64,000 nt of DNA from contig NW_027331831.1 in the NCBI RefSeq assembly GCF_033568475.1, positions 1,860,001 to 1,924,000 on the forward strand, written 5' to 3'. Every line of letters begins with the position of its first letter. The first letter of the stretch is position 1. Positions 19,128-43,896 of the stretch are shown here, one piece after another. The notes beneath the pieces were generated by a model. That model saw nothing but the letters and a program-made list of their open reading frames with translations, made no database searches and had not been told where the DNA came from. This DNA comes from Henckelia pumila. Lineage: Eukaryota > Streptophyta > Magnoliopsida > Lamiales > Gesneriaceae. A program made the position numbers and the translations under genes.

Positions 19128-21148
19128 ATGGCATCCTCCGCCGAGGAATCCCAAAACCACCGCCATCAATCCAATCCATACGCTACCACGGCGGCGCCAC
19201 CGCCAACCCCATCCGTCAACACCAACCCCGCCTCATCCATCTCCACCTCCGACGCTCTTTCCGCTCTCCTCCACCGCCTCCCGCCGACCCTCTCCCTCTC
19301 CCTACCTCCCGGCCGCCGCTCCTCCACCAACGCCCCTCTACTATCTCTCTCCGATCCTATCCCTGCTCTCCACCCAAACCTCCTGTCGGCCTCCACAAAA
19401 CTCGGCTTCTTCCACCTCAAACACCGAACCATCTGTCCCGCCGCCGAGTCCCTTTTCGAACTCCCGCACCAGAAAAAGCAACTCCTATTCCCGAACAACT
19501 GGCCTCTCGGGTACGACGAAGATGATGATGATGATCATGACGAATCTTTTTGCCTCGACTTCACAAAGAAAGTAGATGATTTGAATTTGGATTTGGATTT
19601 GGATTTGGATTTGGATTCTTTGCGTGAATTTACACGAGAAATGGAGACGCTGGGCTTGAGGTTGATTCAAGAACTGGCTTCTGTAATCGGGTTTGAGAAT
19701 CCGATCGCAGAGGAGCTGTGCTCTCTGTTGTGGATATCTGATAATGGGTCGAGCAAACCGGGTCGGGTTTACCCGTATGTAGTCGGGTTGCATTATGTAC
19801 CCAGGTGTCAGAAGTGGTCTTTGTGCTCGGATTCGGGTTGGGTCAATGTGTCGGGTCAGGAGGATTCTCTGCTGATCACACTTGGAGACATTGCTCAGGT
19901 GAGAATTTTACCAACTCTGTTTGGTTTCAAACAAAATAAATAAATAAAATATTTATGTTCTTACGTAATTTATTTAATAATTTGGTGGTTGGGTATTACT
20001 AGACTACTAGTAATGGGTGCTGATATATGCAATAGAAATAGAACAATATTGTTAGTTTATCTTAATAATAATTAATTATGAATTGTACAAACCCTTAAAT
20101 TAATTATCATAATTTTGAGACGACTATATTTTTTTTAATATATAAATAAATATAAAAGTCTACCATAATTGAATGTTAAGTTATTTGCGAATTAAGTTCA
20201 GGATACTTCTTTAACATTTGATTTATTCGCAAATATTAAAATTAATTCAAACCTCAATCGAGGGAAAAAAATAATTTAATTAATACGACAAGCTGGTTCA
20301 ATCTAATCCAGTTGTGTGGGGAAGGGAAATTGGGATTTTGGAATCTTGATAATTTTAGTTTAACACGAAATTAGGATTGAATTTGCATTTAATCACATAT
20401 ATTAATTGACTAGCTGGAAATGCAAATGGAAATGGAAAGGCTCTACTTAATTATACGTCGACATTTTCCAACAAATGTTATCAAATTAATGATGGTTTTG
20501 GACTTGTGATTTGTCAACATTGGTAGACACAATTTTGTGGAATATATTATTCAATTTTAATTGTGTAATTGTGTTAACATTGTTCTTTTTTTCCCCAGTC
20601 AATTCGAATTCTTTTATACTATCAAAAATAAATTTTTTTTTATCTAGTACCAATTCAAACTTTCTTGAACCAAAGCAAGAACAAAATGGCATGATAGAAT
20701 TGGGTCTTGATATCAAATAAAATTATTGAAGTTTTAAGCGTATTATATATGTAAAGTCCTGAAAACAATAATTGAAACCTCCATTCTTTCTGTTCAAAAG
20801 AATATATACATTATGTGGTTTGTAACATGACAGGTCTGGAGCAATGGGAGATCGAAGAAAGTTAGAGGAAGACCGATACCATGTTCGGGCGACGATTTAG
20901 GTCGCGTAACAATGTCTCTACTGGTTACCCTCCCGATGGAAAGCATGGTGTCCCCTCGACCAGCTCCAAAAGTAGCCATTGAAGGTGGACACGATGGCAA
21001 TGATGAAGAAAACGACCGCGACATCGAAGACAAAGACGCCGAGACTGAACCACAAGTGTTCCATTCGTTTCCTTTTGAAGATTACGCTTGGAAAGTATAT
21101 CACGAACGTATTCTGTTCAAAGACCCACTCCTCAGATATAGAATTTAA
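19128..21148 (+). CDS. 2-oxoglutarate/Fe(II) oxygenase-like protein, two exons (19128-19898, 20834-21148)
   Basis: The start codon at 19128 lies 48 bp after a TATA box. Exon 1 encodes 257 residues and ends GDIAQ before a GTGAGA donor. The intron of 935 bp ends in ACATGACAG. Exon 2 encodes VWSNGRSKKVRGRP onward to LLRYRI and a stop, giving 361 residues with phase 0 kept. The N-terminus is low-complexity (Pro/Ser/Thr). The middle resembles the DIOX_N fold (LSASTKLGFFHLKH, PQKKQLLFPNNWPLG), followed by an acidic run (DEDDDDDHDE) and an LD repeat. The segment SLCSDSGWV..LGDIAQVWSNG..KKVRGRP aligns with the catalytic core of plant 2OG oxygenases, but the HxD and distal His positions are not conserved. 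This fits a known plant subfamily of oxygenase-like proteins of unclear activity. Exon 1 lies mostly outside the array. Only the last 16 bp of exon 1, the intron and exon 2 are duplicated later. Confidence 0.8.
19579..19620 (+). repeat. In-frame hexanucleotide repeat encoding Leu-Asp
   Basis: TTGGAT (with one AATTTG variant) is repeated in exon 1 of the oxygenase-like gene, giving an LDLDLDLDLD tract. Six-base steps keep the frame, so length change would be tolerated. Confidence 0.85.
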
Positions 21149-22433
21149 TTGATCAGTGCCATTGATGATAATTGGTGTGGCCTTGTTGTATTCAGTGCCC
21201 AATGGATGTCTTATTTTTTTAGTACATTTTTTGGTACATTGGTTAAACATGCATGAGATGGAGAGTACGTCCACTTCCAATTTTTGGATTATATAGACTT
21301 TTTGTCAATGCACTGAATAAATTTTTTTTTCCAAAAGAACTCAAATAAAAAATCTAATAATAAATCATATCGAATAAATTAATAATAAGAATAATGTTTA
21401 AAAATTTAAAATTTAACAACAGTCCAATTTGTTATTTTCGTTAAATCAAAGTTTTGTTATAATACCATTATTTGGTTTTTTAATTGTCATCGTAAACTTC
21501 ATTACTTAATTTTGTCAATATTATTTATTGTTGTTTGGATTCGTTATAATCACCAAAGCATATAAGTTATAGCCAAAAAAATTTCAAACCAAACAGACGA
21601 TAAACAAAGCACCACCCAATAATATAATGCATTCCTTATTATAACGTGTACGCTTAACATTTTCCTAGGGATAAATTTTCGTATGGATATACAAGTAACG
21701 ACACGACGAGTGTCCTGTGTACGTCGTCCTTATGATCGGGTTGAATGACTTCTTGTGTTGGTGGGATTTCTGCAGGCAATAGTGTAGTTATATTCTCCGA
21801 ATAAATGGCTCGTACAGTGATTTTATTTGTAATTCAATCTATACAAGTTTTATACGAAATTTCTATGTATCACAACCGACGTTTTGAGATCCTTAGAATC
21901 TGCTTGAGGTCTAGTACGGGGAGTTTAGCAATATTTATCAAACATTAGAAGCCAATTATGTGATATCTACGTGTTAAAAGATTGAAAAAAATTATCTAAT
22001 CGAGGGTATACAACGCCAAAAGCAAATAAGGGGTGGGCTTTCTTCTGCCAGGTGCAAAACATAAGCAACACGACAAAGTTCATGTATAAGCCACGGCTTC
22101 GATGCAAACAATACAACAATAGACGTGCCAAAACAGAGTCGAATCCAAGAATTTGGGAGGGGGTGGTTCGACGAGATTGTGCATTAGCTAGATTTTTTGC
22201 GATGAAACTTTACTTTCTAAGACAAATTAAAACATAAAATGGGACAACAAAGATATATAGATTCAAATATAACTTTAAATCTTGCATACGTTAGCCAAAA
22301 TTTAAAAATATAACAGGAAAACATGGGTAAAATGACAATACATTTGTTCAAATTGTATTTGGAGATAGGGTGAACAAAATTGTTTAAATTAACAAGTACT
22401 CTCACACAGGTACGAATAAGAAAGAAGAAATAT
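21149..22433. other. Spacer with unit-1-specific replacement block
   Basis: Homology to units 2 and 3 stops near 21672 (after ACGCTTAACATTTTC) and resumes near 22061 (ATAAGCAACACGAC). The block between is unique in this window and shows no coding sequence. The rest is eIF2alpha 3' flank. Confidence 0.75.
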
Positions 22434-24882
22434 CTAATCTGTTATCCCAGATCCCGTGTTCTCCAGATCTATGTCTCCCATCCCTGTATCTTCCTCCGCT
22501 TCACTATCTTCATCTCCACTAATCTCCTCGTTCTCGCGACCAAGCTTAGCCATATGCTCTGCGAGCAGTTTATCTTCTCGTTCACTCACCTAAATAAAAC
22601 CAAACGAATTAAATGGTGGTGGCCATGATGAATATTCAATCAAGGTGAAAATTTTGAAACCGTAACAGAACATGCAAATGGAAACGATTTTTAGCGACAA
22701 TCTGATGTGATATGGGAAAGTTGAAATTCTAATTTTGATAAATATAGTCATCCTCACCGCTCTAGGTGCTTCTTTGACAGTAAGTTTTCCTGAGTGTCGT
22801 GCAATCTCTTCTGTGCAAGCTTCAATGGCCTTGTTAAGTACAGATATACCTTGTTCCTGCAATGCAAAAATGAAACTAATTTTATTGGTGACAGCTTTTT
22901 GAATCATCTCAAATATAAAGTAAAATATAGGAAAATACAGGAAATGATGATAACAAGGCACCTTAACATTCACCAATGGCAAAAGCAAATTTTATGTCAT
23001 TCGCTGGTGATGTACACCAGTTGCATTGCTTAACAAACTTTGATGCTTACCATAGGATCGTGAGTATCAATATTGATCCAGAACTCATTGCTGCCCATGC
23101 ATAAGGCAATATCAGATTATTAAGCGTAACATGCTTGTCTAGTAATTTACCTTGTCAAGAGTCTGGGTGTTGAGAACATATGCTGGAGGAGCAACAAGTT
23201 TAATTTTAACAGGGCAATCCTTGTTTCCTGCAGCTTCAGCTTTTCGCATCGCGTCCTGAAAAGCATTTGGGAGATATCAGTGGTACATAACACCAAAGAG
23301 AGATCCCAGTAATGCTACTAACCACGATAATAATAAAGTTTTAAAAAAAAAATAAAAACAAAAAAAAAAGAGTCAGATGATTAATCATGGGAGTGAACCT
23401 TTATGTGCAGAACACCATCAAATTGAAAGCACTTCATTTCAATATCTGCACGAATTTTTAAAGGCTGTGGTGTCATTCTTCTCCTAATATTTTTAACTAA
23501 AGAGTCTTTTACATCCTCCGATAAAGCAGGAACAACCTTAGTTATCTGCAGGATTTCCAGATGGAAAATAATCATATACATTGATCTCGTGAAGAATATG
23601 AGATTGAAATGAAAATGTATACTACCTCTTGTCCGTTAGGTCCGACTTCTTTTACTTCACGAGTAAGAGAGTCAAGCACGGAATCAGGATCATTGACAAC
23701 TACTTTAAACGCCTGTAATTTAGAAATCAGTAAAACGTTTGTTACGGAATTAAATATTAAGTTGGCGCAAATATACAACATATACTATATTGATTGAACT
23801 TCTGAGCATCTCACCTCAAATGCATGACCATATTTCCTGTATAAAGGCCAGCCCACATGAATATAGAGGTCCTGCAACAAAAAATCATCTAAGCAAAGCT
23901 CATAATAGATTGTAAAATTAGTTCACTAGTCAAATAGTTCATTAATCGGGTAGCGCAACAAGCAGTATTAGCAAATCGTTTTGAGTTAATTGGTCAGTTG
24001 GCATAATTGATGCTCACACCTTTAAAAAGTACAGTGAGACCTTAACAACTCTACAAGTAACCAAAGGTAACCACAATTTAGTTCCATTGACCAATACCGA
24101 GCTCAAAATTCACAAAGTTGCAATTGGTCCTATTCAACAATAACAAGACAACCATATTCAGATTCAAATACCAAAAGCTATTCCCAGGAGATGTGTTAAA
24201 CAGAGTGAAGCCTAGATCTAGTAAGTAGCCTACAAAGCTCTTCTAGAAAAGCTTCAAACTACCCATAACTGCATCCATATAAGTGTTGAATGTTCTCTGA
24301 CAGTTCCTTGTAGTTTTTTTCTTCCCTTTCTTCTCTTTCACCATTTTTTTTACAAGTTTCACGGCATACTTTGCCTATAAATAGCTACTTACACCTATTT
24401 CGTTGGGATAAAATTTACAAATCACAAGCATGCTGCCAAAGGCAAAATCAAGTTAATTATTTGGAGTCAAGCAACATATCAGTAGAAGTAGCAAACAAAC
24501 ATGAGACTAAAATAGAAAATGCAAAACACAAACTCCCTAACCGATGTTTATTAGCAAGGAAAATAACAACAAAAAATGATACAAAAACATAGAACATTCC
24601 CCAATGGACTCGTTGGCAGTATTTCAAAAGCACTGAGCTAAAATCAATTTAAAGGTGCATCTTTTTATTCAAATAAGAAAACAAAAGAATAGAAATGAAA
24701 AGGAAAACTTTGAAATAAAAATTTCAACAGATACAATCCAATTTAAAGATAACCTCAAGATCAATCTTCATTGTCTCCGCCACATGTCGCATTATGGAAT
24801 GGACAAGCTTGCTCTTGTTAAATCTCTCCTCGCACGCCTGGATATCCTCTTCAGAAACTCGCCTCTTGCTGAGATCAATGTA
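22434..24882 (-). pseudogene. eIF2alpha: eIF2alpha, 5'-truncated, unit 1 (all remaining exons intact)
   Basis: Seven minus-strand exons encode the C-terminal 259 residues of translation initiation factor 2 subunit alpha: 24754-24882 ([14 protein letters not shown]..), 23815-23871 (DLYIHVGWPLYRKYGHAFE), 23626-23712 (AFKVVVNDPDSV..), 23399-23545 (ITKVVPALSEDVKD..), 23151-23255 (DAMRKAEAAGNKDCPV..), 22758-22856 (EQGISVLNKAIEA..) and 22434-22589 (VSEREDKLLAEHM..SGITD stop). All have GT/AG borders and all are whole-codon lengths, so the frame is open throughout. Introns show that this is a genomic copy and not a retrocopy. Missing are roughly the first 84 residues: most of the S1 domain and the regulatory Ser51-type site phosphorylated by GCN2. 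In normal cells eIF2alpha is part of the complex that brings initiator tRNA to the ribosome. Here exon 1 is replaced by a DOG1 fragment in the same frame. Without the S1 part it is unlikely to work as eIF2alpha. Confidence 0.9.
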
Positions 24883-24984
24883 ACGTTCTTGATCGATCAA
24901 CCAATGTTCGAAAAACAGCTGGAATGACTGAGCATCCGAGGTGTTTGAATATGATCCAAGAGAGACATGATTCCCGGAGGCCAA
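24880..24984 (-). pseudogene. DOG1-domain gene, N-terminal piece, unit 1
   Basis: Reads (L)[18 protein letters not shown], then [16 protein letters not shown] on the minus strand. The motif SFQxFFExWLxxQ is the opening of the DOG1 (seed dormancy control) domain found in DOG1-like proteins and TGA bZIP factors. The position expected for the start codon (24982-24984) is TTG, and a TAA lies directly upstream, so no normal start remains. At the Tyr codon the frame passes without a break into eIF2alpha (IDLSKRR), making a chimera of 34 + 259 codons. The last 27 bp of the DOG1 part (24880-24906) recur at 28679-28705, where the DOG1 sequence continues. I infer the family from the motif and from the other two pieces nearby. 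Confidence 0.65.
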
Positions 24985-25367
24985 TTAGGATATGGATTTG
25001 GGCAAAACTTTGAGAAGACGGGATGCTTCGGAATATGGGCATCCGAAGCTGGGTTTTCGAAGGGTGGGATCAAGAAACGGTGGATTTCGAAGGTTTACAA
25101 GTCGGTTGCAAAAGGGTTGATGGAAGCGTAGAAGATTATTAATTATGAGCGGCGGCGGAGGAGAATTGTGGGGGAAGAACTGCAAGCACTGTGAATTGAT
25201 GGGGGAAGAACGGAATTATGCGGTGGAATTATGCGGTGGCCGCCTCAATTTAATTTTTGAAGCTATCTTTATTTAAACATAATATTTATAACCATATACT
25301 TGTTCCCACATCTAGAATTCAATAAATAATTTGTTATTTATAAATCACTTTTCACAATTGTTTGTTT
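24985..25367. other. Flank upstream of the DOG1 N-terminal piece
   Basis: This is probably the former leader or promoter of the DOG1-like gene on the minus strand. Open frames on either strand (24967-25131 plus; 24985-25185 minus, with no ATG) match nothing I recognise. Confidence 0.35.
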
Positions 25368-25607
25368 GCCGGGCTCAGTCGCGAGGGCCTGTAACCATAG
25401 CTGGGGCAATAAAGTGGAGGTGAATGAAGCCGTGCCCACTATCTTCAAAGAAGAACCTTGAGCCCAGACTTGACCGCTGATAGCTGGCGACAGAGCGCAT
25501 AGGAGGTACTCCTCTTTAGTTGCCGGCTTGACAGAGCAGCGACAGTATATCGGTTTCTAAATTGGGCTTATAAGATGGTGTTTCCACCTCATTCGAACCC
25601 CCAAACT
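25368..25607. other. GC-richer island, possibly organelle-derived, unit 1
   Basis: About 240 bp of balanced base composition lies abruptly within AT-rich DNA. Phrases such as GCTGATAGCTGGCGACAGAG and GACAGAGCAGCGACAGTATA recall plant mitochondrial spacer sequence, and the block may be a nuclear copy of organelle DNA (NUMT). No coding frame or target duplication is visible. Origin is a guess from texture. Confidence 0.35.
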
Positions 25608-25726
25608 TTTTTTGATTTATAAATTAAACACACATTTTTTAATTAAAAACATTATACAATTTTTTTTAATTTTTTTCAACTCTTCCCGATGTCACACTCC
25701 TATCTCCCTCCCAAAAACTTCCCTAA

Positions 25727-27739
25727 CTAGTATTCCCACCTGTGCGATGCGCAGAATGATATTTTTGTGTAATTATTGACATAATATGAGTGCTTGAATA
25801 AATAATTAAAATATAAATAAATTAAGGTTGAAGTGGATTAAAAAATTTGAAATATACGGATATAAATATATCTTCATTGCTTATATAACTTTTTTTAAAA
25901 ATTCAACTTGATATTTATTAAACCACAATTGAAGTCATCACAACGGATTTCAAATCCTTAGATTATTGGAATCAATTTAAATTCATTGTAGTTGGAGTGG
26001 TTTGTGACAGAGTTTAATATTTTTGTAAATTTCTTTGGAAAATTTTTTAGAAAACAGTTTTAAGCAAATGAAATAAGTTATTTGACATCTTCTAATATGT
26101 TTATAGATATATAAATATATAAGGTTTTCCGCCCCTATTTTTTTCATAAATTTCTTATTTTAATATTTTAATTTTCATATTATATTTTTATTAAAAAATT
26201 TGTTATTTTCTAAGGGATTTATTTACCCAATAATTATAAATTTGATGCATGCAATATTTGTATTCTATACAAAAGAAAAATATAATTTTTTTAAATTTTA
26301 AAATTTCAAAGTTGAAATATAAAAATATAAAATATAAAATATAAAAATAAATATAATAAAATATAGATACATAATATTTTAATAATATAAGTTACATTAA
26401 ACTTTTTACAATTAGTATAAAATGTTTTTTATATAAACAAAAAATTAATATATAAATTATATAAAATTAAATAAACAAAAAATTTAATTATTATAACAAA
26501 AAAAATTTAAATTAAATCGTAAATTTGTCTATATTTTAAAAAACTTTAATCAAATAATATATCACTCAAATCAAAATAATATTTTCTTGAATATCCTATA
26601 TAATCTCTATCTATAGTTTTAAACTCAATCATATCTTATTTGAATTTTTAAGTTTGATGATAATGTGTTCACTATTTTCAAAAATAATTTTTCGGTTGAA
26701 AATATTATAGTTTCTATTTTAGAAATCTTTTCATCTTATATATATATATAAACAAAAATAAATTTTTTTTTATCACAAAAAAAAATTTAATTTAGTTTAA
26801 CTTCAGGAATATTTTTATCTATGTTCTAAAATTTTATATTAAATAATATATCACTCATAACATCATATTTTTTTGAATATTTTTGTTGTGTATATCTACA
26901 TATGCATATAGACAAATCAATCATCATATTAAAAATAATATTAAATTTTATTTGATAAAAATAATATTTTAAATTTTTTCAATCGTATTTTGAAGTATAT
27001 TTATAATTTCTAGATTAAATATAATATCACTAATTTTTATTAAATTTTGTTTAATAATGAAATTTTTTTTATCAAACTTTTATTAAATTTTGTTTAATAA
27101 TGAAAAATATTTTTTTTAAAAAAAATCTGTCGGATTTTTATAAAAAGAGGAAGAATTTAAATTTTTTAGAAGACTATTTTGAATTTTGTTTTTAATTAAA
27201 TCATATTTTTTACTTATATTTTAAAAATTTTAGTTTAAATATTTGCATATAAGTTTTATGTTTTTATATATAAAAATTGCTAAAGGTATAACAAATATCA
27301 TATACAATGATATCTAAAATATTAATATCTTGAAATTTTTCTATTTTATCGCGATATTTTGTATCTAATTTATCATGATATTTTTGTATATTAAATTCCT
27401 GTATAATTTTTTGTGTTGTAAAATTTGGTGTACAAATTTTGTTTTATTGAGCAAAACAACCAACGTCAAAAGCAAAAATTAAATTTTTTTTATCAAGATA
27501 AATTATATTTTAATTTTTTAAAATTAAATTATATTTTTATCTATATTTTAAAATTTTTATGTCAAATATTTTATCATTTATAATTCATCTTATTTTTTGA
27601 ATATTCAATATTTTCTCTATCTATAATTTTAAATTAAATAATATTTTTTTTATTTTTTAATTTTATGATATCTTTAATATTTTTGAAAATATCTTTTGGG
27701 CTTGAAAATTTGTTTTATTTCTATTTATGTCACTTTTTT

Positions 27740-27781
<42 letters not shown>

Positions 27782-28422
27782 TAAACAACCACATTAAAAA
27801 AAAATTGTTTGATCACTATAAATAGTACTTTAATTTTTTTTAAATTAAATCATATTTATATATATATATATTTTAAAATTTTTAAATCAAATATTTTATC
27901 ACTAATAATATTATTTTTTTAAACTTCAATATTATCTCTATCTATACTTTTAAATTTAACCATATTTATTTTCAAATTTAATGATTAATGATAATGTTTT
28001 TACTATTTTTATAAATTACTTTTGAACGAAAAACTATTTTTAGCAGACTTTTATTCTTTTATATAGATATAGATTAATAATATTATTTTTAAATCTTTGT
28101 TGTGTATATACATAATTGATAGTCAAAACACCGGCTATAAGAAAAATTTCAATTTTGTTAAATCAAGAAAAATAATTTTTTTAATTTTTTTTTTAAAAAA
28201 TCACTCGTATTTTAAATATATTTTAAAATTTTTGGATAATATACTTTATCACTTATAATATAATATTTGTTTTATTTTGAATATTATCTTTACCTAGTTT
28301 AAATTCAACAATATCTTTATTTTATCTATGCAATATTTTTACTAATTTTAGAATAAACTTTAGGCGGGAAAATATTTGTTTTCTTTTTTTAGCATACTTT
28401 CTTGTTTTTATATATATATAGA
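25727..28422 (-). mobile_element. Helitron-like cluster with repeated 5' ends, unit 1
   Basis: At the left, on the minus strand, a hairpin (CTGCGCATCGCACAG) is followed by GGTGGGAATA and CTAG, then T: a Helitron 3' end. At the right, two Helitron-like 5' ends face the same way (TCTATATCTATATAAAAG from 28073 and TCTATATATATATAAAAAC from 28422), each preceded by A. Between them lies very AT-rich DNA with at least four decayed repeats of about 300-400 bp. Each repeat contains ATATCACT/TTATCACT then ..TTGAATATT..TCTATCTAT.. and ends near a TATATA run (about 26560, 27565, 27890, 28245). This suggests repeated insertion of, or duplication at, 5' ends. No Rep/helicase coding sequence is seen. Confidence 0.45.
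27738..27780. repeat. (TA)n microsatellite, unit 1
   Basis: A TA run of about 42 bp within the AT-rich cluster. The equivalent runs in units 2 (43216-43256) and 3 (58720-58760) differ slightly in length. Confidence 0.9.
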
Positions 28423-28609
28423 TTTCTGTTCTTCCTCCCATCGTCTTGCTCGCTTCCTTCTACGCCAAAAATCGTCGCCCAACACCAGCTCTATCATCCT
28501 CCAATCTCGTCTCGTCTGCTTTCCTTTTTCTACGTTGATCGAAATTATAAGTACGTGCATTTGTTTTTTTTTTTTCTGGTTATTTAATTGCGATTTCTTT
28601 GTCGTGACC

Positions 28610-28705
28610 GAATTGTTCAAACCTCTGTTCTTCTTCGTCGTTGCCCCCACATTCGATTACCCGAACAAGTTCTCGGAGGTAACGTTCTTGATCGATCAAC
28701 CAATG
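28610..28705 (-). pseudogene. DOG1-domain gene, middle piece, unit 1
   Basis: The minus strand reads [20 protein letters not shown] then GNDEEEQRFEQ, the continuation expected after the DOG1 opening motif (FFExWLxxQxxxLxEL). It starts exactly at the 27-bp segment shared with 24880-24906 and is preceded on its 5' side by a poly(A)-like run (plus-strand T-run 28707-28720). It then degrades and stops. In gene order it should follow the N-terminal piece on its left; instead it lies 3.8 kb to the right of it. Confidence 0.55.
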
Positions 28706-28860
28706 CTTTTTTTTTTTTTTTGAAAAAATAAATGAATAAATTTTCAAAAAAAGAAGAGAAAAACAACATAATAGGCTTGGTTGGTTTTAGGAGGTGGATT
28801 TCTCGGCCCCCTGTGTTAAACTTTACTTGTTGGATAGAGCCTGAGCTTCATTAATTCATT

Positions 28861-28888
28861 TGGGCCCAGAAGAATTTAGATGGCCCAT
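28861..28888 (+). promoter_or_regulatory. Site II-type promoter boxes of the PPR gene, unit 1
   Basis: TGGGCCCA (28861-28868) and TGGCCCAT (28881-28888) lie 120-150 bp before the PPR start codon. TGGGCY site II boxes are common in plant promoters of organelle-biogenesis genes, including PPR genes. The same boxes occur in units 2 (about 44335-44362) and 3 (about 59837-59864). Confidence 0.5.
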
Positions 28889-29007
28889 ATTATTATGGAC
28901 ATAACCCAATTTATTCGGGTGGTCCACAATTAAGCAGCCAATAAAGCGCCGGTCGGATTTGTGGCTCAGCATCCACCAATGTCTTGCAGCACCAAAAACT
29001 CGCGAGA

Positions 29008-31636
29008 ATGGAGAACATAGTTCTTCCATGTAAAACTATACCCCTTGGAATCCCTGAAACTTTGCGATTTCCGCACAAGATCTCTTTCAGAAGGCCCAGT
29101 TCAGCTGAAGATTTCGAATTGAAGCAGCTCTGCAAGCAAGGACGCCTCGGTGAAGCTATTGCCTATTTGGATTCCATTGCTTTATCATGGTCGAAGGTAC
29201 GACACAACACTTTATCGTACTTGATTCAATCGTGCATTCATTCTCGTTCAATAAGGCTATGTTCCGAGCTGTATGCCCGTGTCAGGGAATGGCTAAAACG
29301 AAAACCTGACCCGTTTCTTGAAGGCAAGTTAGTTGGCATGTTTGCGAAGTGTGGTTCCCTAGATGATGCATTTCAAGTATTTGATGAAATGGTTGAAAGG
29401 AATTTGTATGCGTGGTCTGCTGCCATTGGCGCCTGTTCAAGAGAGAAGAGGTGGGGTGAAGTGTTGGACCTATTTTATTCGATGATGATTGAGGGTGATG
29501 CGTTTTCTGATAATTTCTTGTTTCCCAAAATTTTACAGGCGTGTGGAAAGTGTGGGGATGTCGATACAGGGAGATTGATACATGCTATGACAATTAAACT
29601 TGGGATGAGTAGAGAACTGCATGTGAGTAATTCTATTATTGCTGTCTACGCGAAATGTGGATGGTTGAGCTGTGCTGAGAAGTTTTTTGGAAGATCAGAA
29701 GTGAATGATATAGTTTCTTGGAATGCAATAATTACAGGGTATTGCCTGCAGGGAAAGATGGATGATGCACTTAGATTTTTTAACTTGATGTGCAAAGATG
29801 GTGTTGAGCCGGGGATGATCACTTGGAATATAATGATTTCAAGCTATAACAATGCAGGAAAGTGTGATGAAGCGATTGAAATGATGAATGAGATGGAGAG
29901 TTATGGTCTCATGCCCGATGTTTTCACTTGGACTAGTATGATTTCTGGACTTGCGCAGAATGATAAGGGGGCGGAGGCATTACGTTTGTTTCAAAAGATG
30001 CTTTCATCAAGAGTTGAACCAAATGGGGTTACTCTATTGAGTGCCATATCAGCATGTTCATCTTCAAAAGATCTTAGGAAAGGAAAGGAAGTTCATTTAC
30101 TTGCCATCAAGTTGGGATATGCTGAAGATGTGTGGGGAATTCCCTCGTTGACATGTATTCCAAGAGTGGAAAACTTCGGGCAGCTCGCCAGGTTTTTGAT
30201 ATGATATCAGAAAAAGATGTGTATTCGTGGAACACAATGATAAGAGGATATTGCCAAGCTGGATACTGTGGTGTAGCACATGAGCTCTTTAAAAGAATGC
30301 AAGAATCAAGCATAAAGCCCAACGTAATTACGTGGAATGTGATGATCACGGGTTACATTCATAATGGAGATGTGGATCAGGCCGTGGATCTTTTCCAGAA
30401 GATGGAAAAGGATGGGGGAATTCATCGGGACACTGCATCTTGGAATGCTCTTATTACTGGTTTCTTGCACAATGGCTTGAAAAATAGAGCACTGCAGATT
30501 TTCCGGATGATGCAGTCTGTTGGTTACAAACCCAATTCAGTTACTATTTTGAGCATCTTGCCGGCATGTGCAAATTTGGTTTTTGTGAAAAAGTTGAAAG
30601 AGATCCATGGTTGTGCTTTGAGGAGAAATATAGACTCTGATGGTTCGGTTGTGAATTCTCTCATAGACACTTACTCGAAATCGGGGATGTTGAAATATGT
30701 GGAAGTCATATTCGATGGAAAGTCATCAAAAGATATTGTGACGTGGAACACAATGATTGCTAGTTATTTTGCGCATGGGCGTTTTATGAAATCAATTGAG
30801 CTCTTTGAAATGATGTTGCAACAGCAATACAGACCTAACAGAGGTACATTAGGGGGTGTGATTTCGGCTTATGGTCGTGCCAAAATGGTTGATGAAGGGT
30901 TGCTAGTCTTCTTGAAGATGAGTGAAGATTATCAGGTTTTACAAAGTTTAGACCTTTACATGGCTGTGGTAAATTTATATGGTCGTTCAGGGATGCTCGA
31001 TGATGCATTGAACTTTATCAGGGGAATGCCCATAGAGCCTGATGTCTCTATTTGGTCTGCTTTTTTTGCTGCCTGCCGGGCACATGGGAATGTTAAGTTG
31101 GCAATTTACGCAGGAGAGAGGTTACTTGAACTTGAACCAGGAAATGCTTTCATTCACAGGGTAGTCGTACACCTATATAACTTGGTTGGAATTTCCAAGG
31201 ATTCTTCCTATATAAAAGCATTCGAAATTAGGAAAGATTCAACAGAACCTATGGGTCTGAGCTGGATCGAAGATAAAAACACGGTTCATATGTTTAGTTC
31301 TGGTAATCTTGGCCAACTTGATGATAAATCTATACTTTCTTGGATAAAAAAGGAAGAATTAAGAACCAAGGGGACAAAATACTATGACGTGGGGAAGAAG
31401 AAAAAAAAGAAATGAATGGAGTTCACAGTGAGAAACTTGCATTAGCTTTTGCTCTCATCAAATCTGCTCAAAGGTCTCGAAGTATAAGGATAGTCAAGAA
31501 CTTGAGGACGTGTGAGCAATGCCATGGATTTGCCAAATCAGTTTCTGAAACGCATGGGTGTGAAATATACTTAAGTGATCCAAAATTCTTGCACCATTTC
31601 GAAAACGGGGTCTGTTCGTGTGGCGATTACTGGTAG
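29008..31636 (+). pseudogene. DYW7-like: DYW-class PPR gene (At1g19720/DYW7-like), unit 1, broken
   Basis: Intronless gene from MENIVLPCK to CSCGDYW, homologous along its whole length to Arabidopsis At1g19720 (DYW7), an organelle-targeted PLS-class PPR protein. The mended length would be about 880 codons against about 890. PLS repeats are clear (for example VSWNAIITGYCLQGKMDDAL, TWNIMISSYNNAGKCDEAI), followed by E/E+ and a DYW deaminase region (HSEKLALAFAL, CEQCHGF, CSCGDYW). A frameshift near 30130-30137 (a 4-bp loss relative to ..DDVLVGNSLVDMYSK) splits it into frames 29008-30204 and 30132-31415. It is shared with the other two units. Private to unit 1 are a net 10-bp loss near 31389, which detaches the DYW domain, and a Cys-to-Phe change in DPKFLHHF. 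It would normally bind organelle RNA for C-to-U editing. A working copy must be elsewhere, if one exists. Confidence 0.93.
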
Positions 31637-32189
31637 ATTGATCATATAGGACCGTACACCTTCACCCACTGCTGTTCCGCAAGAAGCACTCTCGATGAGG
31701 TAAATATGTATATATTTTGCATTGTAAATTGAGGAGGCTTGTAGATAAAACTGTACCCAAAGTTTTGTCTATGGCTCCTAGGCTTTCCATGAAAATACAG
31801 TGGTGTAATGGCACTGGCTAAGTATGTTGTTTTTGAATGTAGCTTTTCTTTGTAGATAAGAAATGAATGCATAATGTTATAACTATTGTAAGCAAAGCAA
31901 TAATTTTTCTTTTTTGTGAGAATGAATGATAATACAAAGGCTTGAGCCGAGGCACAAAGAGGCACCAAATGGATTATTGAACAAATATATGTGCTATTAA
32001 TTTACATTTACTCGTATTTTGTTCAGATAATTTATAAATGTAATCATGCTGACGGATCTAGCTTAGGCCAATCCTAGGCTGTAGCCCACCCCAAATTCTT
32101 TTTTATTACATATATAAGTTGTTTTACTTAATCCAATAAAATTTATTTTTTACACCGGAAGCCTATGTGCACAACTTTTTGGGTGGAAA
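31637..32189. other. PPR 3' flank
   Basis: Downstream sequence of the PPR gene. I see no second gene. The minus-strand frame 31642-31968 has no recognisable features. Confidence 0.5.
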
Positions 32190-32490
32190 ATTGCATTGTA
32201 GTCCTGCATATTTGTCATTTTACGATTTTTATTCTCTGTGTTAGGAAATTTCAGTTTTAGTCACTCAATTTTTTTGGTATTCTAGTCTTTTTTTATTGGA
32301 AGTGCTAATGTGGCAATATACACTCCAGTGTTAGCAGTACTGCATTGTTTCCATGTCAGAGCCAAGTCGGAACAAAGATGAAAGTTGCAAAAAAAAAAAA
32401 CAAAGATAACAGATTAAAATTGAAATTTGACAACATAGAGGATCAAAATCCTAAAGACAAACATATAGGATTAAAAACACAATTTGTCTA
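32190..32490. mobile_element. MITE with ~70-bp inverted ends, unit 1
   Basis: The left end (AATTGCATTGTAGTCCTGCA, then ATTTGTCATTTTACGATTTT) pairs with the reverse complement of the right end (AATTGTGTTTTTAATCCTAT, then GTTTGTCTTTAGGATTTTGATCC). The inverted repeats are long and imperfect. No coding capacity. Confidence 0.6.
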
Positions 32491-32529
32491 TTTTTTGTGA
32501 GTAGTACAATGTAATGACTTTTTTTTATA

Positions 32530-33641
32530 CTACCTACGTCCCAATTATATTGTCCACGTTTTTTTTGTTTGTCCCAAATATATAGTAATATATCATATTT
32601 AGTAATATTTTTTTACACTTCTTTACTAATATACCCTTATTAACTACACCTTGAAAATTGTGCAATCATTTTTTAATGAGAGAATTTTTAAAATAGCCTT
32701 CTACAAGTATCTATAATCAATTTTGGCCTTAATTTAGCTATTTTTTCAAATTAGACTTTTAATCATCCCAAGTTACAGATTTATCCCTTAAACCCTATTA
32801 TCACTTATTATCACCGATTTATCATTCTTATTTTTTTCTCTTTGTTGCCACCAACAAAACATTAAATCCAAGATACGAAATCTCATGTTTTGTGGTTTTG
32901 ATTTTTTATTTATTCTTATATTTTATTTTAGTTTATTGAAAAAGTCACAAATTTCATTATATTATCTTCTCCCTCTCCCGGACTCTCACCGCCAACCATC
33001 AAATCAAATCAAGGGAGGTAATCTCTTTTTCTTTTTGCATCATTTTTTATGTGTTTTTATATCATGTTTTAATGTATTGAAAATTCATGATGAATATCAG
33101 ATTATATAATTTTTTATGTAATATTGATAAGTATATCACACAAAGCTAATTGTTAGAGTAATGTTATCTACGTGCAGTAACTAGTAATTAGATAGTAGAG
33201 ACTGATACATTGATATAGTTGTGGGGTTTGGCTCTATTAGCGGTGTTGAATCATATGCATATTGTGAAAAATATTGTGTTAATTTAAAATACATTTTAAA
33301 CAATATTTTTACGAGCCAATTTTTTTTCTTCCAAATATAGTGTTGTAAATCTCTCTTAATTTATTGAGTGAGTTATAGTAATAGAATCTACTAATTTAGA
33401 AAATGTTTAAAAGGATATTTTAGGATTTTAAGTTTATGGAAAGGCTATACTGCAAAATATTTGATGAACAAGGCTATTTTTAAAAATATGGTTTGGAAGT
33501 AGGCTAGAATCCTTAAATTCTCTTTTTTAATATATTACATATGGATAAAATAGGAAGTTTATATAAAATTTACTTTCCCAATAAATTTTTCTTAATCTGT
33601 GTGAAAAACAAAATAGGAGAATGTATTTGGAACAGAGAGAG
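32530..33641. mobile_element. Stowaway-like MITE split by a nested element, unit 1
   Basis: The left terminus CTACCTACGTCCCAATTATA and the reverse complement of the right terminus (CTCTCTCTGTTCCAAATACA) match the CTCCCTCCGTCCC-type inverted repeats of plant mariner/Stowaway elements. Both sides are flanked by TA. Without the inner insertion it would be about 260 bp. Confidence 0.7.
32678..33522. mobile_element. MULE-type element nested in the Stowaway, unit 1
   Basis: An 845-bp insert flanked by a perfect 9-bp target duplication TTTTTTAAT (32669-32677 and 33523-33531), the length typical of Mutator-like elements. The inverted ends are GAGAGAATTTTTAAAATAGC against GAGAATTTAAGGATTCTAGC. The interior (32840-33020) includes a C-rich, leader-like stretch ending GGGAGGTAATC, which could be a captured exon/donor. 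No transposase is visible. Confidence 0.7.
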
Positions 33642-33917
33642 TAATATATAATTCATTGATTAAGTTCAACCCACCCCAACTCTAATTTATGAATCCGTCC
33701 CTGATCATGCATTTAAATATTCGTTTGCAATAATTAAGAGAAATGTGAAAATTTGGTTGAGTTGAGTGCTTGTGATTATTATTTTTAAGTTGACCATTGA
33801 AAATAAGTAATGTATTTTTTCAATAAGAAGAATATATGTTGATTTTGATTAGTACTTGGAGATCTATAATTTGAAGTCTAATATGGTATCATTCGAATAA
33901 AATATTCTTCTCAATTC

Positions 33918-34741
33918 CATGTCTCCCATGAAAGAGTGGGTGCTCGGTGAGCCAACTTGTGGCTAAGGGCTTTGATGACTCTTTGTATAAATAATCTTTT
34001 GTTTAATATAATTTACACTTTTATTAATGGCAATGACTTTATCTTTCTTCATATTGTTATATTGTGATATACTATTGTTGTTTTGATAAAGACCTTGAAT
34101 ATACTATAATGTATGTAAGATGTGGTAGTGCATGGGGATGACTATCATGAAACACATCTTATAGTCACTGTATATTCTAAACAGTTCCTAGTCGATTGAG
34201 CCGTCCGTTAATAAGGATAAGGATCGCTCGAGATTGAGACTAGCATTTGCGATGCCGAGTACCACGTTTCATTGGTATGGAACATAGAGATGTTCAAAGC
34301 ATGCAAATGGATATTCATACGATGAATGATCGAACTACCCTATCCGGACTTTCCAAGTGGTTATCACTTATCGAGTGGATAAAGTCCGCGGTTTTGGTTG
34401 TACACCATTAGTCCTTACTACTTGAAACATCATTGAGACTTTATATGCTAGTACTGTACTTTGACTCGTTTACCGACTCTATTGGGGTCATCAGGTGTCG
34501 GGATTGGGTATAATTACGACACATATAGGAGTCGATGCTTTGTTGTCAAGGATTCACCACATACTTGCTAGTGTGGATATCCTATGCAATCTGAGGAGAT
34601 ATTAGTGTGACGAATCTCTGGTCAGAGTACATGATGTGTTTTAAGAAATAGTTTCTTAGTAGCACATGCGATGTCACTATTTGATCTTCAAGATGTATTG
34701 CATAGTTATCGAATCTCGAACGACTCTCGATTTACCAATTA
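33918..34741. mobile_element. LTR-retrotransposon-like fragment at end of unit 1
   Basis: The composition turns less AT-rich here. The block resembles recurrent non-coding sequence of plant LTR retrotransposons, without recognisable coding domains. It is a fossil truncated at least at its right end, where it joins the 3' end of oxygenase exon 1 of the next unit. The family is not settled. Confidence 0.4.
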
Positions 34742-36003
34742 TGGAGACATTGCTCAGGTGAGAATTTTACCAACTCTGTTTGGTTTCAAACAAAATAAAT
34801 AAATAAAATATTTATGTTCTTACGTAATTTATTTAATAATTTGGTGGTTGGGTATTACTAGACTACTAGTAATGGGTGCTGATATATGCAATAGAAATAG
34901 AACAATATTGTTAGTTTATCTTAATAATAATTAATTATGAATTGTACAAACCCTTAAATTAATTATCATAATTTTGAGACGACTATATTTTTTTAATATA
35001 TAAATAAATATAAAAGTCTACCATAATTGAATGTTAAGTTATTTGCGAAGTTCAGGATACTTCTTTAAGATTTGATTTATTCGCAAATGTTAAAATTAAT
35101 TCAAACCTCAATCGAGGGGAAAAAATAATTTAATTAATACGACAAGCTGGTTCAATCTAATCCAGTTGTGTGGGGAAGGGAAATTGGGATTTTGGAATCT
35201 TGATAATTTTAGTTTAACACGAAATTAGGATTGAATTTGCATTTAATCACATATATTAATTGACTAGCTAGAAATGCAAATGGAAATGGAAAGGCTCTAC
35301 TTAATTATACGTCGACATTTTCCAACAAATGTTATCAAATTAATGATGGTTTTGGACTTGTGATTTGTCAACATTGGTAGACACAATTTTGTGGAATATA
35401 TTATTCAATTTTAATTGTGTAATTGTGTTAACATTGCTCTTTTTTTCCCCCAGTCAATTCGAATTCTTTTATACTATCAAAAATAAATTTTTTTTTATCT
35501 AGTACCAATTCAAACTTTCTTGAACCAAAGCAAGAACAAAATGGCATGATAGAATTGGGTCTTGATATCAAATAAAATTATTGAAGTTTTAAGCGTATTA
35601 TATGTGTAAAGTCCTGAAAACAATAATTGAAACCTCCATTCTTTCTGTTCAAAAGAATATATACATTATGTGGTTTGTAACATGACAGGTCTGGAGCAAT
35701 GGGAGATCGAAGAAAGTTAGAGGAAGACCGATACCATGTTCGGGCGACGATTTAGGTCGCGTAACAATGTCTCTACTGGTTACCCTCCCGGTGGAAAGCA
35801 TGGTGTCCCCTCGACCAGCTCCAAAAGTAGCCATTGAAGGTGGACACGATGGCAATGATGAAGAAAACGACCGCGACATCGAAGACGAAGACGCCGAGAC
35901 TGAACCACAAGTGTTCCATTCGTTTCCTTTTGAAGATTACGCTTGGAAAGTATATCATGAACGTATTCTGCTCAAAGACCCACTCCTCAGATATAGAATT
36001 TAA
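34742..36003 (+). pseudogene. Oxygenase-like gene, promoterless 3' part, unit 2
   Basis: Contains the last 16 bp of exon 1 (codons for GDIAQ), the intron with intact donor and acceptor, and complete exon 2 (35689-36003, VWSNGRSKK.. to LLRYRI). Exon 1 and the promoter are absent, replaced upstream by the LTR-like fragment. Exon 2 itself is undamaged and differs from the complete gene by a few replacements (VESM for MESM, EDED for EDKD). Confidence 0.9.
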
Positions 36004-36986
36004 TTGATCAGTGTCATTGATGATAATTGGTGTGGTGTGGTGTGGCCTTGTTGTATTTAGTACCCAATGGATGTCTTATTATTTTAGTACATTTTTTGGT
36101 ACATTGGTTAAACATGCATGAGATGGAGAGTACGTCCACTTCCAATTTTTGGATTATATAGACTTTTTGTCAATGCAAAATTTATTGGAAAAATAAATGA
36201 ATTTATATTATATTTATTTAATTTATTAAAAAATTGTAGGGTTTTTTTTTTTGAAGAGATTAAAAATAGGGATATATTAGTAAATTATTAATTTTTTTTT
36301 TACTAAATATGAAACAAGTTTATATATTTTAGACAAACGAAGAGGAAAATTTAGGAGCATATATAAATTGTTAAATATAGAAACTGAATATAATGCAGTA
36401 GAGATCATTTGAAACCCCGTGCCGGCCTACTTCTAATATTTTTTTAAAAAGAACTCAAATAAAAAATCTAATAATAAATCATATCGAATAAATTAATACT
36501 ATGAATAATGTTTAAAAATTTAAAATTTAACAACAGTCCAATTTGTTATTTTCGTTAAATCAAAGTTTTGTTATAATACCATTATTTGCTTTTTTAATTG
36601 TCATCGTAAACTTCATTACTTAATTTTGTCAATATTATTTATTGTTGTTTGGATTCGTTATAACCACCAAAGCATATAAGTTATAGCCAAAAAAATTTCA
36701 AACCAAACAGACGATAAACAAAGCATGTACGCTTAACATTTTCGTAGGGACCAAACGGAAATGTAAATATTTTTCTTCTACGTTTTGACCAAATTAACCA
36801 TCGAGTGTGACTCCCATCATCGTAGCGTTTGACATAGTTTTTAATAATGAGGAAATACTTGTCAGCTTCGGCTTAAAAAAAACCGAGAATTGTTACGTAC
36901 GAAAAGTACCTATAACAAACAAGCTGCAGTAGCCATTAGCTAAGCCTCTGGAACGTTTTGGGCATCACTTAATTTGCATCCCCCAG
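36004..36986. other. Spacer, unit 2
   Basis: AT-rich. Includes the segment 36177-36446 that is missing from unit 1. No gene seen. Confidence 0.6.
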
Positions 36987-37535
36987 CTACGGATCTTGAG
37001 CCGCCAAGAACCGGACGGTTTGAGCCGGTTTAAGCGTCTCCACAATCTTGATCACGGTTCTTTTCCTCAAAAAATCGGCACATTGCAGTAGACCCACCGT
37101 CCATGGAAGCAGCTAAATGTTCCATAGCCGAATCGAAGTTAGCCTCGTCCCCGTTACGTGGCCTTCCCACTGTCCTAGCCAATTCCACCATTGTTGGAGA
37201 CACCTATATATATATGGTCACAAGCAACATTAATAATAATTTAAATATTCATGGATATATATATTAGAATGAATGAATGAATAATATTAATATTATACCA
37301 ACTCTAGCAAGTTCGTTCTTTTTCCTCTTGTTTGATCTGTGTCATCAAGTTGCATGTGTCAAATCCAACACATTGCTGATCACAATCCGAATAGCCAATC
37401 CCGGCCTGAATCCACAGATAGGTTCTCTCCAAGGAGCTAAACCAAGCCGGTGCGAACACCAGGAAAACATCCTCACCCGCAACTCTTCCCTTGGCTTCGT
37501 AATATTGGTTCCAATGAGCCATGACTTGTTGGATA
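36987..37535 (-). pseudogene. DOG1-domain gene, C-terminal piece, unit 2
   Basis: The minus strand reads LIQQVMAHWNQYYEAKGRVA, EDVFLVFAPAWFSSLERTYLWI, then in a shifted frame FRPGLAIRIVISNVLDL. After a probable intron (about 37206-37305) come SPTMVELARTVGRPRNGDEA and, shifted again, ADFLRKRTVIKIVETLKPAQTV..FLAAQDP and a stop. This is the conserved course of the DOG1 domain (HYxxYYxxK, SSLExxxLWIGGFRP, ADxLRxxTL..QTVRFLAA). At least two frame changes and the loss of its N-terminal part make it a pseudogene. DOG1-like proteins act in dormancy and hormone signalling, and the domain also occurs in TGA factors. The N-terminal and middle parts lie further right, in the wrong order. The piece is absent from unit 1. 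Confidence 0.8.
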
Positions 37536-37905
37536 AGCAACACGACAAAGTTCATGTATAAGCCACGGCTTCGATGCAAACAATACAACAATAGACGTGC
37601 CAAAACAGAGTCGAATCCAAGAATTTGGAAGGGGGTGGTTCGACGAGATTGTGCATTAGCTAGATTTTTTGCGATGAAACTTTACTTTCTAAGACAAATT
37701 AAAACATAAAATGGGACAACAAAGATATATAGATTCAAATATAACATTAAATCTTGCATACGTTAGCCAAAATTTAAAAATATAACAGGAAAACATGGGT
37801 AAAATGACAATACATTTGTTCAAATTGTATTTGGGGATAGGGTGAACAAAATTGTTTAAATTAACAAGTACTCTCACACAGGTACGAATAAGAAAGAAGA
37901 AATAT

Positions 37906-40355
37906 CTAATCTGTTATCCCAGATCCCGTGTTCTCCAGATCTATGTCTCCCATCCCTGTATCTTCCTCCGCTTCACTATCTTCATCTCCACTAATCTCCT
38001 CGTTCTCGCGACCAAGCTTAGCCATATGCTCTGCGAGCAGTTTATCTTCTCGTTCACTCACCTAAATAAAACCAAACGAATTAAATGGTGGTGGCCATGA
38101 TGAATATTCAATCAAGGTGAAAATTTTGAAACCGTAACAGAACATGCAAATGGAAACGATTTTTAGCGACAATCTGATGTGATATGGGAAAGTTGAAATT
38201 CTAATTTTGATAAATATAGTCATCCTCACCGCTCTAGGTGCTTCTTTGACAGTAAGTTTTCCTGAGTGTCGTGCAATCTCTTCTGTGCAAGCTTCAATGG
38301 CCTTGTTAAGTACAGATATATACCTTGTTCCTGCAATGCAAAAATGAAACTAATTTTATTGGTGACAGCTTTTTGAATCATCTCAAACATAAAGTTAAAT
38401 ATAGGGAAATACAGGAATTGATGATAACAAGGCACCTTAACATTCACCAATGGCAAAAGCAAATTTTATGTCATTCGCTGGTGATGTACACCAGTTGCAT
38501 TGCTTAACAAACTTTGATGCTTACCATAGGATCGTGAGTATCAATATTGATCCAGAACTCATTGCTGCCCATGCATAAGGCAATATCAGATTATTAAGCG
38601 TAACATGCTTGTCTAGTAATTTACCTTGTCAAGAGTCTGGGTGTTGAGAACATATGCTGGAGGAGCAACAAGTTTAATTTTAACAGGGCAATCCTTGTTT
38701 CCTGCAGCTTCAGCTTTTCGCATCGCGTCCTGAAAAGCATTTGGGAGATATCAGTGGTACATAACACCAAAGAGAGATCCCAGTAATGCTACTAACCACG
38801 ATAATAATAAAGTTTAAAAAAAAATTAAAAACAAAAAAAAAAGAGTCAGATGATTAATCATGGGAGTGAACCTTTATGTGCAGAACACCATCAAATTGAA
38901 AGCACTTCATTTCAATATCTGCACGAATTTTTAAAGGCTGTGGTGTCATTCTTCTCCTAATATTTTTAACTAAAGAGTCTTTTACATCCTCCGATAAAGC
39001 AGGAACAACCTTAGTTATCTGCAGGATTTCCAGATGGAAAATAATCATATACGTTGATCTCGTGAAGAATATGAGATTGAAATGAAAATGTATACTACCT
39101 CTTGTCCGTTAGGTCCGACTTCTTTTACTTCACGAGTAAGAGAGTCAAGCACGGAATCAGGATCATTGACAACTACTTTAAACGCCTGTAATTTAGAAAT
39201 CAGTAAAACGTTTGTTACGGAATTAAATATTAAGTTGGCGCAAATATACAACATATACTATATTGATTGAACTTCTGAGCATCTCACCTCAAATGCATGA
39301 CCATATTTCCTGTATAAAGGCCAGCCCACATGAATATAGAGGTCCTGCAACAAAAAATCATCTAAGCAAAGCTCATAATAGATTGTAAAATTAGTTCACT
39401 AGTCAAATAGTTCATTAATCGGGTAGCGCAACAAGCAGTATTAGCAAATCGTTTTGAGTTAATTGGTCAGTTGGCATAATTGATGCTCACACCTTTAAAA
39501 AGTACAGTGAGACCTTAACAACTCTACAAGTAACCAAAGGTAACCACAATTTAGTTCCATTGACCAATACCGAGCTCAAAATTCACAAAGTTGCAATTGG
39601 TCCTATTCAACAATAACAAGACAACCATATTCAGATTCAAATACCAAAAGCTATTCCCAGGAGATGTGTTAAACAGAGTGAAGCCTAGATCTAGTAAGTA
39701 GCCTACAAAGCTCTTCTAGAAAAGCTTCAAACTACCCATAACTGCATCCATATAAGTGTTGAATGTTCTCTGACAGTTCCTTGTAGTTTTTTTCTTCCCT
39801 TTCTTCTCTTTCACCATTTTTTTTACAAGTTTCACGGCATACTTTGCCTATAAATAGCTACTTACACCTATTTCGTTGGGATAAAATTTACAAATCACAA
39901 GCATGCTGCCAAAGGCAAAATCAAGTTAATTATTTGGAGTCAAGCAACATATCAGTAGAAGTAGCAAACAAACATGAGACTAAAATAGAAAATGCAAAAC
40001 ACAAACTCCCTAACCGATGTTTATTAGCAAGGAAAATAACAACAAAAAATGATACAAAAACATAGAACATTCCCCAATGGACTCGTTGGCAGTATTTCAA
40101 AAGCACTGAGCTAAAATCAATTTAAAGGTGCATCTTTTTATTCAAATAAGAAAACAAAAGAATAGAAATGAAAAGGAAAACTTTGAAATAAAAATTTCAA
40201 CAGATACAATCCAATTTAAAGATAACCTCAAGATCAATCTTCATTGTCTCCGCCACATGTCGCATTATGGAATGGACAAGCTTGCTCTTGTTAAATCTCT
40301 CCTCGCACGCCTGGATATCCTCTTCAGAAACTCGCCTCTTGCTGAGATCAATGTA
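37906..40355 (-). pseudogene. eIF2alpha: eIF2alpha, 5'-truncated, unit 2 (frameshifted)
   Basis: Same seven-exon remnant as in unit 1, ending SGITD at 37906-37908, but the penultimate exon has an extra TA (about 38316-38322). This changes EQGISVLNK to EQGIYLYLT and destroys the frame of that exon. The insertion lies in a short TA tract, so slippage is the likely cause. It is shared with unit 3. The other exons look intact by eye. The S1/Ser51 part is missing here too. Confidence 0.9.
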
Positions 40356-40457
40356 ACGTTCTTGATCGATCAACCAATGTTCGAAAAACAGCTGGAATGA
40401 CTGAGCATCCGAGGTGTTTGAATATGATCCAAGAGAGACATGATTCCCGGAGGCCAA
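40353..40457 (-). pseudogene. DOG1-domain gene, N-terminal piece, unit 2
   Basis: Same [16 protein letters not shown] piece, fused in frame to eIF2alpha, with TTG (40455-40457) at the start position. The 27-bp repeated segment is 40353-40379; its partner is 44152-44178. Confidence 0.65.
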
Positions 40458-43211: not shown

Positions 43212-43257
<46 letters not shown>

Positions 43258-43896
43258 TAAACAACCACATTAAAAAAAAATTGTTTGATCACTATAAATA
43301 GTACTTTAATTTTTTTTAAATTAAATCATATTTATATATATATATATTTTAAAATTTTTAAATCAAATATTTTATCACTAATAATATTATTTTTTTAAAC
43401 TTCAATATTATCTCTATCTATACTTTTAAATTTAACCATATTTATTTTCAAATTTAATGATTAATGATAATGTTTTTACTATTTTTATAAATTACTTTTG
43501 AACGAAAAACTATTTTTAGCAGACTTTTATTCTTTTATATAGATATAGATTAATAATATTATTTTTAAATCTTTGTTGTGTATATACATAATTGATAGTC
43601 AAAACACCGGCTATAAGAAAAATTTCAATTTTGTTAAATCAAGAAAAATAATTTTTTTAATTTTTTTTAAAAAATCACTCGTATTTTAAATATATTTTAA
43701 AATTTTTGGATAATATACTTTATCACTTATAATATAATATTTGTTTTATTTTGAATATTATCTTTACCTAGTTTAAATTCAACAATATCTTTATTTTATC
43801 TATGCAATATTTTTACTAATTTTAGAATAAACTTTAGGCGGGAAAATGTTTGTTTTCTTTTTTTAGCATACTTTCTTGTTTTTATATATATATAGA
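41200..43896 (-). mobile_element. Helitron-like cluster, unit 2
   Basis: CTAG end at 41200-41203 and minus-strand 5' TC at 43896, with the same internal repeats as unit 1. Differences are mostly homopolymer and TA-run lengths, plus a short ATC insertion near 43054. Confidence 0.45.

Follow-up and report, generated by a model that had tools for sequence, protein, structure and literature searches.

The window analysed here, a stretch of 64,000 nucleotides from Henckelia pumila, contains a tandem array of three units of approximately 15.5 kb each, which start at positions 19883, 34742 and 50229; unit 3 extends past the window end. The limits of unit 1 (19883–34741, unstranded) were taken from self-BLAST and from the junction sequences. 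Self-BLAST of the window aligned 22061–48498 with 37533–64000 at 99.5% identity over 26,490 columns. The left edge of the array falls within a plus-strand open reading frame (19128–19943), and the bases preceding it end in ..CACACT, whilst those preceding the joints between units end in ..CAATTA. Unit 1 is the most diverged, with 46 of the 68 unit-specific differences counted over 22061–33011 and its copies in units 2 and 3; unit 3 has 18 of these and unit 2 only 4. An Rfam search gave no matches at the gathering threshold.

The minus strand of the array carries three pieces of a DOG1-type gene, of the plant seed-dormancy class (N-terminal, middle and C-terminal; hereafter N, M and C), a 5′-truncated gene for the translation factor eIF2-alpha and a Helitron-like element. 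In unit 1 the N piece lies at 24880–24984 and encodes 35 residues (LASGNHV...), with copies at 40353–40457 and 55839–55943 in units 2 and 3. Its first codon is TTG, immediately behind an in-frame TAA, and it contains no ATG. The 35 residues are all that lies between that stop codon and the joint; an upstream exon with a bZIP region may have existed, so the gene may have been of either the DOG1-like or the TGA bZIP type. The M piece is 93 bp long (28613–28705 in unit 1; 44086–44178 and 59587–59679 in units 2 and 3). Unit 2 has its C piece at approximately 36987–37537, in more than one frame, namely 37537–37307 (LIQQVMAHW...), followed by 37203–37033 and 37112–36990; in unit 3 tblastn placed it from 53022 down to approximately 52472, and in unit 1 tblastn found no match to C. 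The first-pass annotation had read an order C-M-N spanning two units, but the C piece concerned belongs to unit 2, and units 2 and 3 are both arranged as M, N, eIF2-alpha, C. Since N, M and the eIF2-alpha and Helitron-like parts are common to all three units, the array is probably younger than the rearrangements that produced them.

The C piece alone passes the PF14144 model, scoring 49.6 to 52.8 bits against a cut-off of 27 (E = 4.5e-13 for its first part); its two later parts gave no Pfam match and are named the DOG1 tail from features of the family. Joining M to C raised the PF14144 score from 52.8 to 60.3 bits, a gain of 7.5 bits, compared with 54.2 bits for N+C without M, 53.6 bits for the pieces in their genomic order M-N-C, and 53.0, 54.3 and 53.9 bits for three constructs in which M was shuffled. 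Adding N to M+C leaves the Pfam score unchanged at 60.3 bits; against TGA7 (chain 8gyz) the score rises from 15.8 bits for C to 25.3 for M+C and 35.2 for N+M+C, so that N adds approximately 10 bits. The earlier assignment of the pieces to DOG1 is in this way upheld by Pfam for C, and for M when it is joined to C, and is without Pfam support for N. Neither N nor M alone matched Pfam, N alone matched nothing in the PDB, M alone matched only designed helical proteins there, and N+M matched TGA7 at E = 0.32, amid unrelated matches. Designed proteins also matched the M part in the PDB searches with M+C and N+M+C (best E approximately 0.003), hence part of the gain from M may reflect general helix composition.

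Because the matches of N or M alone are weak or absent, both are identified by their collinearity with C. Jointly the three pieces span the DOG1 domain once and are collinear in the order N-M-C, which bears out the first-pass proposal of a single broken DOG1-type gene with permuted pieces. The locus holds no DOG1 reading frame able to make protein: N has no ATG and stands behind a stop codon, C is spread over several frames and the order is permuted. The DOG1 gene is dead at this locus, and no DOG1 function is expected of it.

The N and M pieces share 27 bp exactly (24880–24906 = 28679–28705), as had been noted before, and they do so in each unit. On the minus strand this 27-mer occurs at six places in the window, two per unit; the copies of unit 2 lie at 40353–40379 and 44152–44178, and those of unit 3 at 55839–55865 and 59653–59679. 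One copy ends N, where it is fused to eIF2-alpha, whilst the other opens M, directly behind a stretch of A and a single G. Either side of the 27-mer, the flanks in N and M differ from the first base. When the ends of the 3.8-kb segment between the two copies are joined at the 27-mer, the N-M reading described earlier indeed results. Unit 1 contains 69 exact direct repeats that are 14 bp or longer, four of which (27, 16, 15 and 14 bp) survive a filter on complexity and GC content, and the 27-mer thus far exceeds the second-longest complex direct repeat (16 bp). N and M may yet derive from two DOG1 paralogues, since the pieces overlap only in the 27-mer, though identity at 27 of 27 bases favours one gene. 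The run of A before the second copy could hint at a retroposition step, and counts against the end-joining reading given below.

Past 24880, N runs in frame into the truncated eIF2-alpha gene (22434–24879 in unit 1), which is present from approximately residue 80 on, the first 80 or so residues being missing; the frame is kept across this junction in all three units. This in-frame fusion, like the Helitron-like element between M and N, was absent from the first-pass annotation. The exons, which we placed by hand, are separated by GT/AG introns, and these argue against a spliced retrocopy. The fragment matches the eIF2-alpha domain PF07541 (E = 1.2e-34) and, in the PDB, chain 9hd7_W (E = 8.1e-82; query residues 30–288 on 76–328). 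As that match begins at residue 76, the N-terminal S1 domain is absent from the fragment. Nor was an eIF2-alpha N-terminus found elsewhere in the window, where the only strong matches to a human N-terminal query begin at its residue 76 and the rest have E values of at least 2.7. The last residues of N, IDQERY, resemble VDKEKGY of eIF2-alpha, so neither the N/eIF2-alpha joint nor the DOG1 share of the 27 bp can be fixed to the base. A single scan of viral contigs for eIF2-alpha relatives gave three stretches that fit the pattern, none of them a true relative.

The opposite end of the eIF2-alpha fragment is where unit 1 parts from the others. In units 2 and 3 the C piece begins at CTTAT, right behind the eIF2-alpha flank; in unit 1 its position is taken by approximately 390 bp of unit-specific sequence (21672–22060, minus strand; from a three-unit alignment and BLAST), possibly the native downstream flank of eIF2-alpha. 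The last bases common to all units are CTTAT (22061–22065, minus strand), which is also the CTT-AT that opens C (37533–37537), and may represent a 5-bp microhomology at the eIF2-alpha/C joint. The divergence of unit 1 from units 2 and 3 starts exactly at this joint, which may for that reason be younger than the rest. Either C was lost in unit 1, for example when the native eIF2-alpha flank was copied in, or the flank was lost in units 2 and 3. Pfam had no match for two reading frames taken from the unit-1-specific region, nor for two short ones from a GC-richer stretch upstream.

Non-autonomous plant Helitrons begin with TC behind a host A, carry a short hairpin and end in CTAG before a host T. 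An AT-rich insertion of 2,696 bp between M and N (25727–28422, minus strand) looks like such an element: its ends conform to the terminal rule of a 5′ TC after a host A and a 3′ CTRR before a host T (A/TC at 28422, CTAG/T at 25727), with the candidate hairpin CTGCGCATCGCACAG ahead of the 3′ end, although the naming leans on the likeness to plant Helitron ends, and the hairpin-plus-CTRR rule is not specific, given that the window yields 27 minus-strand and 20 plus-strand candidates. The hairpin, CTGCG-CATCG-CACAG, has one mismatch and is weak in folding energy, with z = -0.60 and 56 of 200 shuffles being as good. All three units have this 3′ end; unlike in known elements, no gene cargo was recognised, and within the window the 3′-end pattern occurs only in these three units, such that mobility is putative. 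The element takes up 2.7 kb of the 3.8-kb segment, and the distance between M and N without it is 931 bp.

We put at roughly one half the probability that an eIF2-alpha fragment was caught between N and C by end joining, which also moved the 93-bp M piece some 0.9 kb upstream, with Helitron-like insertion and tandem amplification following. The ancestral state, as inferred from the locus itself, would have been a DOG1-type gene on the minus strand. Breaks at the 27-mer and approximately 66 bp further on would have been repaired by end joining, the gap between N and C being filled by the intron-bearing eIF2-alpha piece; the fusion and the introns are observed, whilst the route is presumed. A staggered, filled-in break would have left M with its own copy of these 27 bp on the left, and the displaced M would have joined into a third break approximately 0.9 kb upstream, a distance that excludes the Helitron-like element. 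That element, being present in all units, would then have landed between M and N, and the last step would have been the tandem amplification of the neighbourhood to at least three copies, the copies themselves being observed. The difference of unit 1 at C would reflect either the loss of C there or a change in units 2 and 3.

This reading draws support from the ends of M. The left end of M and the end of N have 27 bp in common, and the right end of M (..RFEQ) continues directly into C (LIQQV..) in the alignment to TGA7. The continuity of M and C was judged from this protein alignment, which is gapless at the M/C joint but shows a gap of three residues within M, located three residues ahead of that joint; this counts against the reading, as do the likeness of the N end to eIF2-alpha and the parting of unit 1 at the eIF2-alpha/C joint. 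As both ends of M coincide with both ends of the gap filled by eIF2-alpha, the place of M is tied to the eIF2-alpha insertion. Further points in favour are the in-frame N/eIF2-alpha junction of all three units, the retained GT/AG introns, the CTTAT at the other joint and the failure to find an eIF2-alpha N-terminus elsewhere in the window.

The main rival to a move by end joining, which we consider distinctly less probable, is that the 93 bp of M were copied as filler from the then-intact DOG1 gene into a break approximately 0.9 kb upstream, and that eIF2-alpha replaced the original M later. Such a copy accounts for the 27-bp overlap without a staggered break, but it makes coincidences of the right end of M lying at the first codon of C and of its left end lying no more than 27 bp from where N stops. 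Maize offers a precedent for short filler from sites near the break, and also for the end-joining reading: the passages of Goettel and Messing (2009; PMC2686159) drawn on here describe how end joining at the p locus produced a chimeric gene next to a tandem array, together with 50 bp of filler from nearby sites, and quote filler lengths of 8, 1–131 and 31–84 bp at other maize loci. The present locus resembles p2/p1 at the edge of the P1-wr array, as portrayed in those passages, in its end-joined chimera, the short filler of nearby origin and the tandem array of a gene-sized unit. It differs in that p2/p1 involves one gene family with a reconstructed ancestral state (PMC2686159), whereas here two unrelated genes are joined, a fragment from the middle has been displaced and amplification has extended to the scar itself.

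The first-pass annotation had proposed, as one of two routes, the insertion of a circular DNA opened within the gene. Put in full, upstream DNA with N, the 27-mer and M would have been cut out as a circle, which would have opened again at the 27-mer and been reinserted beside C together with eIF2-alpha DNA. This does yield the observed order and overlap; a local three-break shuffle, however, yields the identical sequence in one step fewer, so the 27-mer junction does not single out a circle, and the end-joining reading is favoured as needing the fewest steps. Since C directly follows the insert in both unit 2 and unit 3, the circle would also have had to return to its own excision site, and we regard it as improbable. 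For the translocation at the cattle KIT locus, circular intermediates in which segments were reordered have been described (Durkin 2012, as reported in PMC3927395); the permuted segment order is common to both, but the cattle case, as summarised there, is inter-chromosomal and involves hundreds of kb, compared with 0.1–3 kb, a local setting and a hypothetical circle at the present locus.

The annotation's other suggestion, that part of DOG1 was locally duplicated in tandem and losses then followed, fares worse. Tandem duplication did occur in the region, as the three 15.5-kb units testify, but this route requires two losses that end at both edges of the same 27 bp, with no residual homology beyond them on either side, and is very improbable. 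In both the circle and the duplication versions, the eIF2-alpha fragment between N and C is left unaccounted for. The earlier observation is partly confirmed and its interpretation partly supported.

We hold it to be just as doubtful that a transposon, either a TIR element or a Helitron, carried in the eIF2-alpha fragment or the whole stretch from M to C. Gene capture by Helitrons and Pack-elements is described in PMC13317346, though the present reading does not call on it. A Helitron-like element does lie between M and N; the DOG1 and eIF2-alpha pieces, however, lie outside its ends. A 10-bp inverted match, CACGACAAAG and its inverse, is found just inside the M and C ends, but it does not extend, and a TIR element spanning M to C was rejected as no target-site duplication was seen by eye around it. 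The match, noticed post hoc, is unexplained and counts against the end-joining reading; when 20,000 pairs were taken at random from unit 1 minus the Helitron-like part, 18 reached 10 bp. LINE-like retroposition, suggested by the layout of a 27-mer beside a 5′-truncated gene and a run of A beside a 27-mer, was rejected since the halves are wrongly ordered within a unit, eIF2-alpha retains its introns and the A run precedes M rather than ending the eIF2-alpha piece; a reading across neighbouring units, in which N of unit 2 is paired with M of unit 1, was likewise rejected, since the insert would then include a PPR gene and a tandem junction.

Schiml in 2016 and Vaughn and Bennetzen in 2014 are said to have described plant tandem duplications that follow adjacent single-strand breaks. 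Duplications at adjacent nicks are cited in the parts of PMC7464560 and PMC5730883 consulted here. As far as those parts go, the end-joining reading agrees with them in that a short direct duplication is expected at a staggered break, and departs from them in that the copies are here separated by other sequence and the type of break is inferred. The locus shows no new mechanism: the proposed one is ordinary and a circle is not required. It clearly exemplifies the everyday wear and tear of a genome, and is a well-preserved case in which plant break repair most likely fused unrelated genes, shifted a short exon fragment and duplicated a few bases, with the scar kept in three near-identical copies; as such it bears on the origin of chimeric genes.

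The missing S1 part of eIF2-alpha would presumably include Ser51, the phosphorylation site. We give the least credence of all to the idea that the unit 1 fusion is expressed from the DOG1 promoter, through a non-ATG or internal start, to yield an eIF2-alpha without this site, and that the array grew around a working new gene of which only the later copies decayed. The DOG1-derived start of the fragment contains no in-frame ATG. In unit 1 the eIF2-alpha frame is open from YIDLSKRR to GSGITD and the stop codon at 22434; in units 2 and 3 exon 6 is broken by a common 2-bp insertion.

Across the stretch compared among the three units of the tandem array (22061-33011 in unit 1, and its copies), 46 differences are specific to unit 1, whereas none falls within the 3.5 kb from 23581 to 27062. 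The divergent copy in this interval is unit 3, a pattern suggestive of conversion involving units 1 and 2. A second difference between units lies near the C piece of the broken DOG1-type gene, where a segment of approximately 250 bp is present in units 2 and 3 and absent from unit 1 (21312-21320 in unit 1, compared with 36177-36435).

A 10-bp inverted match, read on the minus strand, adjoins both the end of the M piece (28597-28606; CACGACAAAG) and, at the unit 1 position of the eIF2-alpha/C junction of units 2 and 3, the C joint (22069-22078; the inverse of CACGACAAAG); it was equalled by 18 of 20,000 random pairs.

The Helitron-like element between the M and N pieces contains internal repeated blocks of approximately 80 bp, spaced roughly 290-720 bp apart, with ten copies over two units (26506-28272 and 41979-43746). 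Between its end and the N piece, the region at approximately 25360-25560 has raised GC and a foreign appearance; a Pfam search of two short frames from it gave no match.

Each unit also carries a plus-strand PPR gene (28984-31636 in unit 1), the reading of which is split over successive frames. The switch from the first to the second frame occurs at an identical position in all three units, with second frames of 427, 375 and 377 residues in units 1, 2 and 3, respectively; in unit 1 a third frame is present, ending in ..CGDYW.

Outside the array, a plus-strand open reading frame of 661 residues (8483-10468) encodes an AtC3H23-like protein with ankyrin and CCCH zinc-finger regions. The left start of the array, at 19883, falls within another plus-strand open reading frame (19128-19943), the sole match of which is a weak one to the non-haem dioxygenase N-terminal domain (E=0.24).
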